37,581 nt of DNA from assembly GCA_029251005.1 (NCBI GenBank), contig JAQXEE010000097.1:1-37581 (forward strand). Reading direction: 5' to 3'. The stretch's first letter is position 1; each line of letters opens with the position of its first letter. Below are positions 19,574 to 34,149 of this stretch, one piece after another. Under the pieces are notes generated by a model, which was not told where the DNA came from, did no database searches, and saw nothing but the letters and a program-made list of their open reading frames with translations. The DNA is from Flavobacteriales bacterium (lineage in GTDB: Bacteria > Bacteroidota > Bacteroidia > Flavobacteriales_C > GCA-002722245). The translations under genes and the position numbers were made by a program.

Positions 19574-19987
19574 TTAATGCGGAAGCTTCTTAATAAAATA
19601 ACCGTACAAAAATGTTCCAATCAACGCACTAAAAACAACAACTAAAAAAGATAAATATCCATTTCCCACCAACGTAAAAATTGGACCAGGACAAGCTCCT
19701 GTCATCGCCCAACCTAGCCCAAAAATTGTACCTCCAAACAAATACCGCTTCCATGTTATTTGTTTTGGTGTAAACAAAATAGAAGTTCCATTAATAGATT
19801 TTATTCGCCTTTTTTTAATGACTTGAATTATGATTATTCCAGTAATTATTGCAGATCCAATAATTCCGAACATGTGGAAGGATTTAAACTTAAACATCTC
19901 ATAAATTCGATACCACGAGACAACTTCTGATTTGGTGAAAATTATTCCCAACAACAATCCCGCGAATAAAAATTTTATTTTTCTCAT
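19574..19987 (-). CDS. YeeE/YedE-type sulfur transporter half (DUF6691-like)
   Basis: 137 residues with about four hydrophobic segments. The stretch GLGWAMTGACPGP carries the conserved Cys of the YeeE/YedE fold, which passes thiosulfate or sulfide-type ions by a Cys relay. This is the shorter half; its partner begins 571 bp upstream and ends 1 bp before this start (TAA-A-ATG), so the two are cotranslated and probably form one transporter. Neighbours are a persulfide dioxygenase-like protein and a SulP permease, which fits sulfur detoxification or assimilation. The substrate is inferred from family and context. Confidence 0.82.
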   Translation of the reverse strand: MRKIKFLFAGLLLGIIFTKSEVVSWYRIYEMFKFKSFHMFGIIGSAIITGIIIIQVIKKRRIKSINGTSILFTPKQITWKRYLFGGTIFGLGWAMTGACPGPIFTLVGNGYLSFLVVVFSALIGTFLYGYFIKKLPH

Positions 19988-19988
19988 T

Positions 19989-20558
19989 TTATTTTAAGCT
20001 TAATATTATTGGTAAAAAAAAGTATGTCATTGTTATTCCTCCAATAAAAAATCCAATTACTGCAATTAAAGAAGGCAATTGTAAATTACTTAAACCACTA
20101 ATCGCATGACCCGAAGTACAACCTCCAGCCCAACGAGTTCCAAATCCAATTAAGACCCCACCTCCAACTAGCAAAATCATACCACGAAGGCTAAAAATAG
20201 CATCCGTCGCAAACAATTCTTCAGGCAGCAATTGTTCACCTGGATTTTTAATTCCCAAAGATTGTAATTCAATAATGATATCAGAGTTCAAATCCATGGG
20301 TGCAGCAGAACTCATATATTCACTTGCTATAAATCCACCCAATACTACTCCACTAAGTAATATTAAATTCCAAATTTGACTTTTCCAGTCAAACCTAAAA
20401 AACTCAGAGAACCTACCTGCTCCTCCAATCGAACACATTGTTCGCAAATTAGATGATAATCCAAAGTTTTTCCCGAAAAACAATAGTAAAAACATCATTA
20501 ACGCTATAAGTGGTCCAGCAATGTACCATGGCCAAGGTTCTTTTATAAGTTCAATCAT
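19989..20558 (-). CDS. YeeE/YedE-type sulfur transporter half
   Basis: 189 residues with about five membrane segments. The motif IGFGTRWAGGCTSGHAISG holds the family's conserved Cys and the Gly-rich pore helix. It starts 83 bp after the persulfide dioxygenase-like gene and ends 1 bp before the second transporter half. Proteins of this type import thiosulfate or move sulfur compounds across the inner membrane. An extracytoplasmic segment near residues 85-120 (SSAAPMDLNSD...) separates the two helical parts. Confidence 0.85.
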   Translation of the reverse strand: MIELIKEPWPWYIAGPLIALMMFLLLFFGKNFGLSSNLRTMCSIGGAGRFSEFFRFDWKSQIWNLILLSGVVLGGFIASEYMSSAAPMDLNSDIIIELQSLGIKNPGEQLLPEELFATDAIFSLRGMILLVGGGVLIGFGTRWAGGCTSGHAISGLSNLQLPSLIAVIGFFIGGITMTYFFLPIILSLK

Positions 20559-20641: not shown

Positions 20642-22054
20642 TTAATCTAAAGTTGAAGGACAAACATATTCTGATAGCGCTAAGCCTGTTTTCCTAATAG
20701 AATTAAAACCACCTGCAACATCAATTACCTTATCAAAACCTCTCGATTTTAAAATTGATGCTGCTATCATGCTTCTATATCCGCCTCCACAATGAATATG
20801 ATATGTTGTACTTTTATCTAGTTTAGAAATAATTTCATTTATCGAGCCCAAAGGATAATTCACAACTTTATTATCACTAATATGTTCTGTCAAATATTCT
20901 GAATTTTTCCTTGAATCAATAACAGTAATATCTTCAACTAATCTGCTCTCGAGTTCAGCAGCAGAAATAGACTCTATTGAGTCAACTTCGTTTCCTGCAT
21001 CAACCCAAGATTTCATACCTCCCAACAAGAATCCAATAGTATTATCATACCCAACTCTACTTAACCTAGTAACAACTTCTTCAGCTCTTCCTTCATCTAC
21101 AATTAACAAAATAGGTTGCTTTAAATCAATGATTAATGCTCCAACCCATGGTGCAAAACCACCATCAATTCCAATATTTATAGCGTTTGGAATAAAAGCA
21201 TCCTTAAATGTTTGTGGTTTTCTAGTATCTAATAATAAAGCCCCAGACTCATTCGCCAATTCTTCAAAATCAGGTACTGACAATGCTCTTGTTCCTTGTG
21301 TAATTACCTCATCTATGTTTACGTACCCTTTTTTATTCATAACTGCATTTTTAGCGAAGTATTGCGGAGGTGCTGTTAAACCGGTTGTTACTTCTTTGAT
21401 AAATTCGTCCTTAGTCATATCGGCTCTTAAAGCGTAATTAACGGCTTTTTGGTTTCCCAAAGAATCAAAGGTCTCCTTGCTCATATTTTTACCACAAGCC
21501 GATCCTGCACCATGCCCTGGATAAACGATTACATCATCCGATAAAGGCATTATTTTATTTCTTAAACTATCAAAAAGCATTGCTGCTAAATCAATTTGTG
21601 ATAAATCAGTCTTAACAGCTAAATCAGGTCTTCCCACATCTCCAATAAATAAAGTATCTCCGGAAAAAACAGCATGATCCTTACCGTTTTCATCGATTAA
21701 TAAAAAAGTAGATGATTCTTGTGTGTGTCCAGGAGTATGTAAAACCTTAACGGTAATAGCTCCAATTTTAAACTCTTGACCATCTTCTGCTATGATTGAT
21801 TTATAACTTGTTTGAGCTGTAGGTCCGAAAACAATATCAGCACCAGTTTTCTCAGCCAATGAAACATGCCCACTAACAAAATCAGCATGGAAGTGAGTTT
21901 CAAAAACATACTTAATTATAGCATTTTCTTGTTCAGCTTTATCAATGTATGGTTTAATTTCTCTTAAAGGATCAATAATCGCTGCTTCCCCATTAGATTC
22001 AATATAGTAAGCACCCTGAGCTAAACATCCTGTATAAATTTGTTCAATTCTCAT
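20642..22054 (-). CDS. Persulfide dioxygenase-like metallo-beta-lactamase with two rhodanese domains
   Basis: 470 residues. Residues 1-240 are a metallo-beta-lactamase fold of the ETHE1/CstB kind: ETHFHADFVSGH (His54, His56, Asp58; Phe replaces the usual last His), then HTPGHTQES and SGDTLFIGDVGRPDL supply the remaining ligands for one iron. Two rhodanese domains follow. The first (about 260-360) lacks a catalytic Cys, with LIVDEGRAEE at the loop; the second (about 375-465) has it at Cys422 in HCGGGYRS. Such enzymes oxidise low-molecular-weight persulfide to sulfite and can form thiosulfate. It is cytoplasmic and lies between SulP and the sulfur transporter genes. A Crp/Fnr-type palindrome lies 69-82 bp upstream. 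Confidence 0.88.
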   Translation of the reverse strand: MRIEQIYTGCLAQGAYYIESNGEAAIIDPLREIKPYIDKAEQENAIIKYVFETHFHADFVSGHVSLAEKTGADIVFGPTAQTSYKSIIAEDGQEFKIGAITVKVLHTPGHTQESSTFLLIDENGKDHAVFSGDTLFIGDVGRPDLAVKTDLSQIDLAAMLFDSLRNKIMPLSDDVIVYPGHGAGSACGKNMSKETFDSLGNQKAVNYALRADMTKDEFIKEVTTGLTAPPQYFAKNAVMNKKGYVNIDEVITQGTRALSVPDFEELANESGALLLDTRKPQTFKDAFIPNAINIGIDGGFAPWVGALIIDLKQPILLIVDEGRAEEVVTRLSRVGYDNTIGFLLGGMKSWVDAGNEVDSIESISAAELESRLVEDITVIDSRKNSEYLTEHISDNKVVNYPLGSINEIISKLDKSTTYHIHCGGGYRSMIAASILKSRGFDKVIDVAGGFNSIRKTGLALSEYVCPSTLD

Positions 22055-22122
22055 TTCAACATAATTTTATGATTCAAATAATATGGAGCTAACAATAATA
22101 GTAAGTTTGACTTCCTTTTGCA

Positions 22123-22136
22123 GTGACTCAAATCAC
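22123..22136. promoter_or_regulatory. Crp/Fnr-type operator upstream of the persulfide dioxygenase-like gene
   Basis: GTGAC-TCAA-ATCAC is an imperfect 5+4+5 palindrome with one mismatch from GTGAT-N4-ATCAC. It lies 69-82 bp upstream of the ATG at 22054. A degenerate -7 element (TATTATTTG on the minus strand, 22083-22075) would put it around -60, an activator position. Confidence 0.45.
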
Positions 22137-22145
22137 TTAAAGATA

Positions 22146-23900
22146 TTAAATGTCTTTTTCTTTAAAAACATTAGTTTGTAGTGCGTGTTTAAAAACTTGT
22201 TTTTGTTTCTCATTTAAACAATTATCAAAGCAATCAATAGCTGTTTGAATATCGTTATAGAAATGTTTCACTCCTAATTCATCAATAAATTTTGTTTTAA
22301 AAAGGAAGTCTCTAACTGGACCTATTAATCCCGAAAAAGCAACTTGAATTCCTTTTAATTGTAGCTCAGCTATTAATTCTTTTAATGCTTGTAAAGCCGT
22401 TGCGTCAATACTTGAAATACTTCCGCAGTGTAATACAAACAATTTCAAGGGCATTCCTTTTAACTCAACCTCTTTTTTTACTGCATCTATAAAATGTGTA
22501 ACATTGGCAAAGTATAATTGGGCATCATGCCGCATTACTAAAACATCATCTCTTAACTCAATCTCCTCAAAACGACCTACATTCTTAAAATTATTCGTTC
22601 CTTTTAGTCTTGCCAAAACGGCTATATGAGGTTGTGTTGTCCTGTATATAAGCATGATTAAAGAAATAAAAACTCCTGCTAGAATACCCTCTTTAACACC
22701 AAACATAAGTGTAACAATTAAAGAAACTATCAACATCCAGAAATCTTGTTTCTTTGTTTTCCAAAGAAATACAGGATATTTGAAATCAATTAAACCAAAC
22801 ACAGCAACCATAATTATAGATCCTAAAATTGCTTTAGGTAAATAGTAAAAGAGTGGTGTTAAAAATAAAAGTGTTAATGCTATTAAACCTGCCGCTATAA
22901 TTGCTGCTAAATTAGTTTTCGCTCCTGCCTGATCACTTACTGCCGATCGACTAAAACCTCCTGTTGTAGGATAGCATCCAAAAAAGGAACCTACTAAATT
23001 ACCCATCCCTAAACCAATCATCTCTTGATTATTATCCAACTTATACTCTCCTTTATGATTTGATTGAATTGCTTTTGCTATAGATATTGATTCCATAAAT
23101 GCTATCAATGCTAGTGTTAACCCAATTGGAAGTAATGCATCTAAATTTTCGGTTTCTAAATCTGGTATTGAAAATGAAGGCAAACCTGTAGGGATTTCTT
23201 TAACGATAATTACGTCGTGAATTTCTAAATTACCAAACTTAACAACTAATATCCCAGCCACTACAGCGACTAAAGCTCCAGGAATAGAATTGTTTATCTT
23301 TTTAAGATTCCGAACCAAAAGAACACCGCCAAAACCTATACTAAGCGTAACCAAATTAATAACCTCATAACTAAGGAAAGCTTGATGAATAATTGAAAAA
23401 ATATTTGTGCTTCTATCTAAATCAACTCCAATGATATGCTTTAATTGGTTTAAGCCAATAATTAAAGCTGCCGCTGATGTAAAACCACTAACTACTGGTT
23501 TAGATAAAAAATTAACTAAGAATCCTAATCGAAATATTCCAAAAGCGACCTGAACTACTCCCATTATAAACGAAAGTAAAACTGCGAGTAAAATATAATT
23601 TTCACTCCCAAGCACAGCTATTCCAGAAATTCCAGCCGCAACTATTAAAGAATCTAGTGCAACAGGACCAACCGCTAATTGCCTTGATGTTCCAAAAATG
23701 GCATAAACAACTTGGGGAATCATTGCGGCATATAATCCATAAACCGGTGGTAAACCTGCAATCATTGCGTAAGCCATTCCTTGAGGAATAAGCATTACTC
23801 CTACAGTTAAACCTGCCGAAATATCGCCTGAAAAATATGCTTTTTTATAGTTGGGCAACCAATCTAGAATAGGAAAAAATTGCTTTAATTTCATCTTCAT
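22146..23900 (-). CDS. SulP-family sulfate/anion permease with STAS domain
   Basis: 584 residues from ATG 23900; a TTG one codon upstream was not used because the ATG is adjacent. Ten or more membrane segments span about 20-430, with the family signature region near GLYAAMIPQVVYAIFGTS and LAVGPVALDSL. A C-terminal STAS domain (about 450-565) contains GSISSIDATALQAL. SLC26/SulP proteins move sulfate, bicarbonate or related anions. Its place next to a persulfide oxidation gene suggests export or uptake of sulfite or sulfate. A perfect Crp/Fnr-type palindrome lies 45-58 bp before the start codon. Confidence 0.92.
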   Translation of the reverse strand: MKMKLKQFFPILDWLPNYKKAYFSGDISAGLTVGVMLIPQGMAYAMIAGLPPVYGLYAAMIPQVVYAIFGTSRQLAVGPVALDSLIVAAGISGIAVLGSENYILLAVLLSFIMGVVQVAFGIFRLGFLVNFLSKPVVSGFTSAAALIIGLNQLKHIIGVDLDRSTNIFSIIHQAFLSYEVINLVTLSIGFGGVLLVRNLKKINNSIPGALVAVVAGILVVKFGNLEIHDVIIVKEIPTGLPSFSIPDLETENLDALLPIGLTLALIAFMESISIAKAIQSNHKGEYKLDNNQEMIGLGMGNLVGSFFGCYPTTGGFSRSAVSDQAGAKTNLAAIIAAGLIALTLLFLTPLFYYLPKAILGSIIMVAVFGLIDFKYPVFLWKTKKQDFWMLIVSLIVTLMFGVKEGILAGVFISLIMLIYRTTQPHIAVLARLKGTNNFKNVGRFEEIELRDDVLVMRHDAQLYFANVTHFIDAVKKEVELKGMPLKLFVLHCGSISSIDATALQALKELIAELQLKGIQVAFSGLIGPVRDFLFKTKFIDELGVKHFYNDIQTAIDCFDNCLNEKQKQVFKHALQTNVFKEKDI

Positions 23901-23944
23901 CAATTTACTTTGCGCAAAGAAATGAGATAAAGATTTAATTCACA

Positions 23945-23958
23945 GTGATTTTTATCAC
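23945..23958. promoter_or_regulatory. Crp/Fnr-type operator upstream of sulP
   Basis: GTGAT-TTTT-ATCAC is a perfect 5+4+5 inverted repeat in the 74-bp spacer before sulP. A weak -7 element (TTTCTTTG on the minus strand) would place its centre near -43, the usual class II activator position for Crp/Fnr proteins. A similar site occurs at 22123-22136. Confidence 0.55.
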
Positions 23959-34099: not shown

Positions 34100-34149
34100 A
34101 ATAACTTTTCACTATTTAAAAGTGCTTTTCATTACACTTCATTATTCTT

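Follow-up and report, generated by a model that had tools for sequence, protein, structure and literature searches.

Two short palindromes in a sulfur gene cluster of a Flavobacteriales bacterium raise the question of which protein reads them, and in response to what signal. The cluster lies in a contig stretch of 37,581 nucleotides (the window, i.e., the whole of that stretch), and its features are the following:

Putative operator S, 23945..23958, no strand assigned: GTGATTTTTATCAC (read on the minus strand GTGATAAAAATCAC), before sulP
Putative operator P, 22123..22136, no strand assigned: GTGACTCAAATCAC (read on the minus strand GTGATTTGAGTCAC), before the PDO gene
sulP, 22146..23903, minus strand: SulP-family anion transporter with STAS domain (open reading frame and family search)
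PDO, 20642..22054, minus strand: metallo-beta-lactamase fold and rhodanese (two stretches), CstB-like by architecture
YeeE/YedE-type sulfur transporter half (Sulf_transp), 19989..20558, minus strand (family search)
Second transporter half (Sulf_transp / DUF6691), 19574..19987, minus strand (family search)

We consider it quite likely that both palindromes are class II operators bound by a CRP/FNR-superfamily regulator encoded on another contig (C47), and that they would serve to activate sulP and the PDO-YeeE genes when persulfide or polysulfide is present. A C47 dimer would bind GTGAY-N4-RTCAC centred at -41.5 and bring RNA polymerase, by class II activation, to a weak promoter of the Bacteroidota type, so that sulP and the PDO-YeeE genes are turned on; the trigger would be persulfide or polysulfide reacting with Cys77/Cys83 (211-aa numbering) of the C47 effector domain, and the outcome a cell that makes the enzyme and transporters removing reactive sulfur. 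The evidence comes from sequence comparison, i.e., from site conservation, promoter spacing, covariation of recognition helix and site, and linkage of the regulator gene in relatives; that C47 binds the window sites in this very organism, and that it activates there, is what we infer.

The two sites and their frequency

Operator S is placed between an OmpA-like gene and sulP, and operator P between sulP and PDO. The sulP frame opens at a TTG (23903), an ATG at 23900 being the likelier start. By its architecture the PDO product is a metallo-beta-lactamase-rhodanese protein, i.e., a CstB-like persulfide dioxygenase of predicted activity (among solved structures 3tp9 and 3r2u match best), and the YeeE/YedE half (19989..20558) is probably part of the PDO transcript. 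A preliminary description of this DNA had reported a pair of 5+4+5 palindromes here; their positions hold and operator S is a perfect 5+4+5 dyad, but the 5-mers of operator P (GTGAC/ATCAC) mismatch at the inner base, and its dyad is perfect when read as AGTGA-N6-TCACT. The same description correctly saw a cluster without a regulator gene: none is found among the open reading frames of at least 80 aa, and the six cNMP-binding genes of the genome all lie off the window contig.

It had also proposed the frequency of the motif in the genome as a measure of its meaning, and here the counts stay at chance in the strict, relaxed and near-consensus forms alike. GTGAY-N4-RTCAC occurs twice in the 2,903,766 bases, both times in the window, and since the reversed control also occurs twice the count alone is no proof. 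With one mismatch allowed, the window holds 2 sites against 1.87 expected from shuffles; the relaxed GTRAYN4RTYAC is rarer in the genome than its reversed control (37 vs 63), and near-consensus sites with TTTG behind them number 59 vs 76. Counting thus adds no member to the regulon and lends the sites no support, and by the strict match the regulon in this genome would be limited to the sulP and PDO promoters. It is their place, their spacing to the promoter and their conservation before orthologues that lift the sites above chance. A near-site, GTAATGAAAAGCAC (34122-34135, minus strand; two mismatches to GTGAYN4RTCAC), is present upstream of a thioredoxin gene (34087-33797, minus strand), 22 nt before TAATTTTG, and in locus L132 the thioredoxin gene likewise stands behind such a site; the gene is a possible weak third member of the regulon.

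Conservation before orthologues and distance to the promoter

Of 395 genomes in the class, 318 encode a relative of PDO (1e-70). Within the own order (10 genomes, 1e-40) the gene occurs only here and in one other genome, at 37% identity; the cluster may have been acquired. We fetched 60 regions, comprising those around the top PDO matches from 40 other genomes and 20 regions chosen for a regulator beside PDO, the latter being counted in the dyad search, the 990-kb motif count, the helix/site tally and the -7 spacing. They were joined by 20 further PDO regions (six picked for a family with the regulators nearest to that of this genome, the others being further PDO matches) and by 80 named loci that partly overlap the genomes of the earlier sample (e.g., L348 and L117) and are not fully independent of it. 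An unguided search for 5-mer dyads (gaps of 0-12, 124 upstream regions) ranked GTAAC-N4-GTTAC first, in 13 of the 124 regions, with none in 10 rounds of shuffled upstream regions; this dyad has the architecture and register of the window sites. The relaxed motif GTRAYN4RTYAC is seen 92 times in 990 kb (the 60 regions plus the window) vs 23 for the reversed control, and 163 vs 29 times in the named loci.

The expected conservation before orthologues is borne out for part of them. Of the 40 regions that were not selected for a regulator, 17 have an exact GTRAY-N4-RTYAC in the 170 bp before PDO, as do 10 of the 20 further regions and 37 of the 80 named loci, with a correctly spaced TTG of the -7 element at 17, 9 and 32 of these sites, respectively. 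The rest carry no exact site (23 of the 40 top orthologues), and six of these 23 have a regulator gene within the fetched region (L075, L077, L082, L089, L091, and L105). One region, L080, has the sulP-PDO-YeeE-DUF6691 order of the window and operators before both sulP and PDO. Behind correctly spaced sites, family look-up of 15 distinct genes gave two TauE/SafE proteins, a relative of type III sulfide:quinone reductase (SQR), a thioredoxin, two SoxA-like cytochromes, an OsmC protein and a peroxiredoxin; a DUF983 protein and two efflux proteins of the outer membrane also appeared, and four genes had no family. A search of the own genome, run without a positive control, found no SQR of the relatives' kind.

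Among 312 oriented sites (120 sequences in both directions), nnnnTTTG starts 22 nt after the site in 86, where the mean per offset is 4, and TAnnTTTG does so in 46; at the same offset, 84 oriented reversed-control sites show nnnnTTTG once and TAnnTTTG at most once. Both window sites are followed by such an element, neither of which matches TAnnTTTG perfectly:

Putative Bacteroidota -7 element before sulP, 23915..23922, minus strand: TTTCTTTG, beginning 22 nt past operator S
Putative -7 element before PDO, 22093..22100, minus strand: TATTATTG, one mismatch to TAnnTTTG, beginning 22 nt past operator P

In E. coli, CRP sites of class II have GTGA arms with six bases between them and are centred at -41.5, the classic activator position. 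In Bacteroidota the first T of the -7 element TAnnTTTG is at -12, as an excerpt of PMC6847099 gives it, and a 14-base site ending 22 nt before such an element therefore spans -48 to -35, with its centre at -41.5. By this 22-nt spacing both window sites have class II placement, with a predicted centre at -41.5, which points to class II activation as a reading of the sequence, and transcription would start at about 23910 (sulP) and 22088 (PDO). The activator-like distance named in the preliminary description is thus upheld, counted from Bacteroidota -7 elements. A sigma-70 promoter scan, ill-suited to this phylum, gave 5 hits vs 9.2 in shuffles, i.e., fewer than the shuffled sequences.

A candidate regulator and its probable operators

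The genome encodes six cNMP-binding proteins, five of them above the Pfam cut-off. The one that concerns us is the following:

C47 regulator gene, G000:C47:4903-5589, minus strand, outside the window: CRP/FNR-superfamily regulator of 228 aa

The protein (PF00027, 27.9 bits vs a cut-off of 27.5) has a C-terminal helix-turn-helix whose recognition helix, SSREVVSRLLK, is of the CRP-like Arg-Glu-...-Arg type, and it is the only one of the six with an Arg-(Glu/Val)-x-x-x-Arg helix. Both helix arginines are present in all 90 members of the family set, and the family profile matches CRP and NtcA chains. Relatives occur in 232 of 395 class genomes (1e-30). When 74 of the 79 best relatives (the own included) were fetched, PDO lay within 6 kb of the regulator gene in 22, and PDO, SulP or a YeeE half in 27, a count that takes in 12 of the 20 regulator-beside-PDO regions only as members of the 79 best. 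With one to few such genes per multi-megabase genome, 22 of 74 is far above random placement. Regulator, sulP and PDO are consecutive in L116 and L122. In the own genome the C47 gene is not linked to the sulP/PDO cluster, and no site was found upstream of it; its product is 39-49% identical to 18 aligned relatives, and the family tree does not settle its position. The distant Crp/Fnr protein that had been suggested for this cluster thus has a good candidate, of CRP/FNR type and encoded away from it, and C47 is likely the regulator of both window sites.

Two side observations concern the gene's surroundings. One genome of the same genus (74% complete), where the search gave no PDO, carries a 94% identical C47 fragment at a contig end (G004:C8:1-297), and its retention there suggests that C47 may have other targets, or that the cluster was lost or missed. 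On contig G000:C120 (L004, L005), two nearly identical 178-aa genes of CRP/FNR type are separated by about 2 kb.

The position following the first helix arginine (SREV or SRVV) holds Glu in 52 and Val in 38 members of the family set of 90, and the sites largely follow it, GTGA half-sites going with Glu and GTAA half-sites with Val. Writing A for a GTAA and G for a GTGA half-site, the sites within 5 kb number AA 36, AG 2 and GG 3 at Val loci, and AA 8, AG 28 and GG 26 at Glu loci, where 28 of 62 are thus mixed; L116, a locus of both classes, enters both counts. Named loci with a single class give AA 85, AG 10 and GG 6 for Val (27 loci) and AA 1, AG 2 and GG 9 for Glu (5 loci), leaving out L345, L352 and L353 (several classes) and loci without a regulator, with L289 set apart. 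Fisher values, which take related sites as independent, are not used. Exceptions exist in both directions, i.e., Glu loci with GTAA sites (L130, L188, L163, and L174) and Val loci with GTGA sites (L178 and L179). On the family tree, built from 216 columns with the Glu/Val column included, the label changes about four times, at least three of them forced by well-supported branches, and one small Val group has a site in one of its four rows. Within the Val clade sits a Glu clade (L174, L200, and L203) whose sites are GTGA once more, apart from one GTAA; L077 and L128, Val rows that stand separately, carry GTAA sites. In an advance prediction, the class was written down from the PDO sites of 11 genomes before the proteins were read, and it agreed in eight of the nine genomes with a match, G210 being scored by its better match (its second paralogue is of Glu class). 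The miss was G388, whose best match (35% identical) is Val while its PDO site is GTGA, and G300 and G238 (72 and 84% complete) had no regulator match. C47 itself belongs with the Glu proteins, and both arms of each window site are GTGA.

Some loci hold more than one class of regulator or site. L116 (6007-10811) has two family regulators, one Val and one Glu, in a single sulfur cluster with GTAA sites and a GTGA site. A Val-class regulator of G194 (L178 7259-7968) has a correctly spaced GTGA-type site in its own promoter and a Glu-class paralogue elsewhere (L166), and it is possible that the two cross-regulate. Five Maribacter loci (L307, L314, L318, L322, and L350) each show one GTGA/GTGA site and several GTAA sites, and only a Val-class regulator was seen in them.

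The helix has counterparts in known regulators. By profile alignment, Ser-Arg-Glu-x-x-x-Arg is common to E. coli CRP and C47, while C47 differs from CRP in the gap opposite the pocket Glu, the effector-domain cysteines, the Bacteroidota promoter and its sulfur rather than carbon genes. The nearest solved chain, PDB 3dv8, named only as a Crp/Fnr-family regulator, shows the two cysteines as well as the Arg-Glu helix when aligned by profile. Cyanobacterial NtcA has an Arg-Val helix like the Val class, and its activated promoters carry GTA-N8-TAC at about -41.5, i.e., the Val-class site and place, although it responds to 2-oxoglutarate and controls nitrogen genes (so described in an excerpt of PMC3898017).

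On these grounds it is very probable that the two palindromes serve a CRP/FNR-type activator as operators, with C47 the likeliest protein, and three other readings of the sites can be set against this one. Chance palindromes in AT-rich intergenic DNA would agree with window and genome counts that equal the controls, as would RNA hairpins (e.g., a terminator of the upstream OmpA-like gene), yet conservation before orthologues and the fixed -7 spacing make this hardly credible; the hairpin reading in particular is disfavoured, as the hairpins are not unusual (z -1.3 and -1.6) and terminator prediction was blank at both sites. Binding by another CRP/FNR paralogue, reporting oxygen, redox or nutrient state, has to be considered in a genome where six cNMP-binding genes occur and five of them pass the Pfam cut-off, but is very improbable because the other five lack the helix that goes with GTGA/GTAA and the covariation of helix and site is with the C47 family. 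The same protein could instead be a repressor that silences sulP and PDO until sulfur releases it, and a site at -41.5 does also adjoin or overlap the position of a -33 element; -41.5 before a weak -7 element is, however, the classic activator position (CRP class II, NtcA), and we regard repression as improbable.

The signal and its meaning for Bacteroidota

The cAMP pocket of CRP involves Glu72, Arg82 and Ser83, Glu72 being the Glu of the 'IGE' motif. In the profile alignment of the C47 family to the CRP chain this Glu stands opposite a gap and the first of two effector-domain cysteines falls beside the pocket Gly-Glu; a Ser conserved in 89 of 90 members lies one column off the CRP Ser. The cysteines (Cys77 and Cys83, 211-aa numbering) are present in 90 and 87 of the 90 members, respectively. 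C47 has no FNR-type N-terminal cysteine set, there being no cysteine before Cys77 in the 211-aa form. The redox or anaerobic signal suggested earlier is therefore not favoured, given this absence, the two conserved cysteines in the effector domain, and a gene that in relatives is often found among sulfur genes. Conserved pocket cysteines together with sulfur genes behind the sites favour reactive sulfur over oxygen, and reactive sulfur species as the signal are our reasoned guess.

An alternative keeps protein and sites and replaces the trigger by cAMP or another small molecule. An attempt to exclude cAMP through a missing cyclase failed, since a class III nucleotide cyclase domain is present (G000:C124:16364-16909, within a 1255-aa open frame), and the profile does give the CRP and NtcA fold. 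The gap opposite the pocket Glu with the first cysteine beside it, the near invariance of the two cysteines, and linked genes and genes behind sites that are largely sulfur genes all speak against a small molecule, which we hold to be rather unlikely as the trigger.

CstR, SqrR/BigR and FisR, of the CsoR, ArsR and sigma-54 activator families, control PDO-type genes; these families are unrelated to C47, and to our knowledge the familiar persulfide switches all lie outside CRP/FNR. They sense reactive sulfur through cysteines, according to excerpts of PMC7315123 and PMC9774590. A Crp-like protein of Acinetobacter is persulfidated under sulfide, with no known effect given in the excerpt of PMC7315123, and the excerpts of PMC9774590 and PMC8148161 name no CRP/FNR persulfide regulator. 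A full-text search, with most subscription papers and preprints outside its reach, gave, among the matches listed, no Bacteroidota regulator of the CRP/FNR type for persulfide oxidation.

If a reactive-sulfur trigger is right, operator, promoter spacing and regulator would jointly reveal a CRP/FNR regulon for the persulfide job in Bacteroidota, its candidate sensor being two cysteines. A wider reading, to which we give even chances, is that a widespread Bacteroidota branch of CRP/FNR may be a dedicated reactive-sulfur sensor in which two cysteines replace the ligand pocket, and that the Glu/Val change may repeatedly have altered the operator, in both directions between GTGA and GTAA, along with a sulfur regulon of PDO, SulP, YeeE, TauE, a type III SQR relative, thioredoxin and a SoxA-like cytochrome. 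The helix and its sites form a natural experiment in DNA recognition, where one residue and one base per half-site have changed over a number of times, the operators for the most part keeping step.
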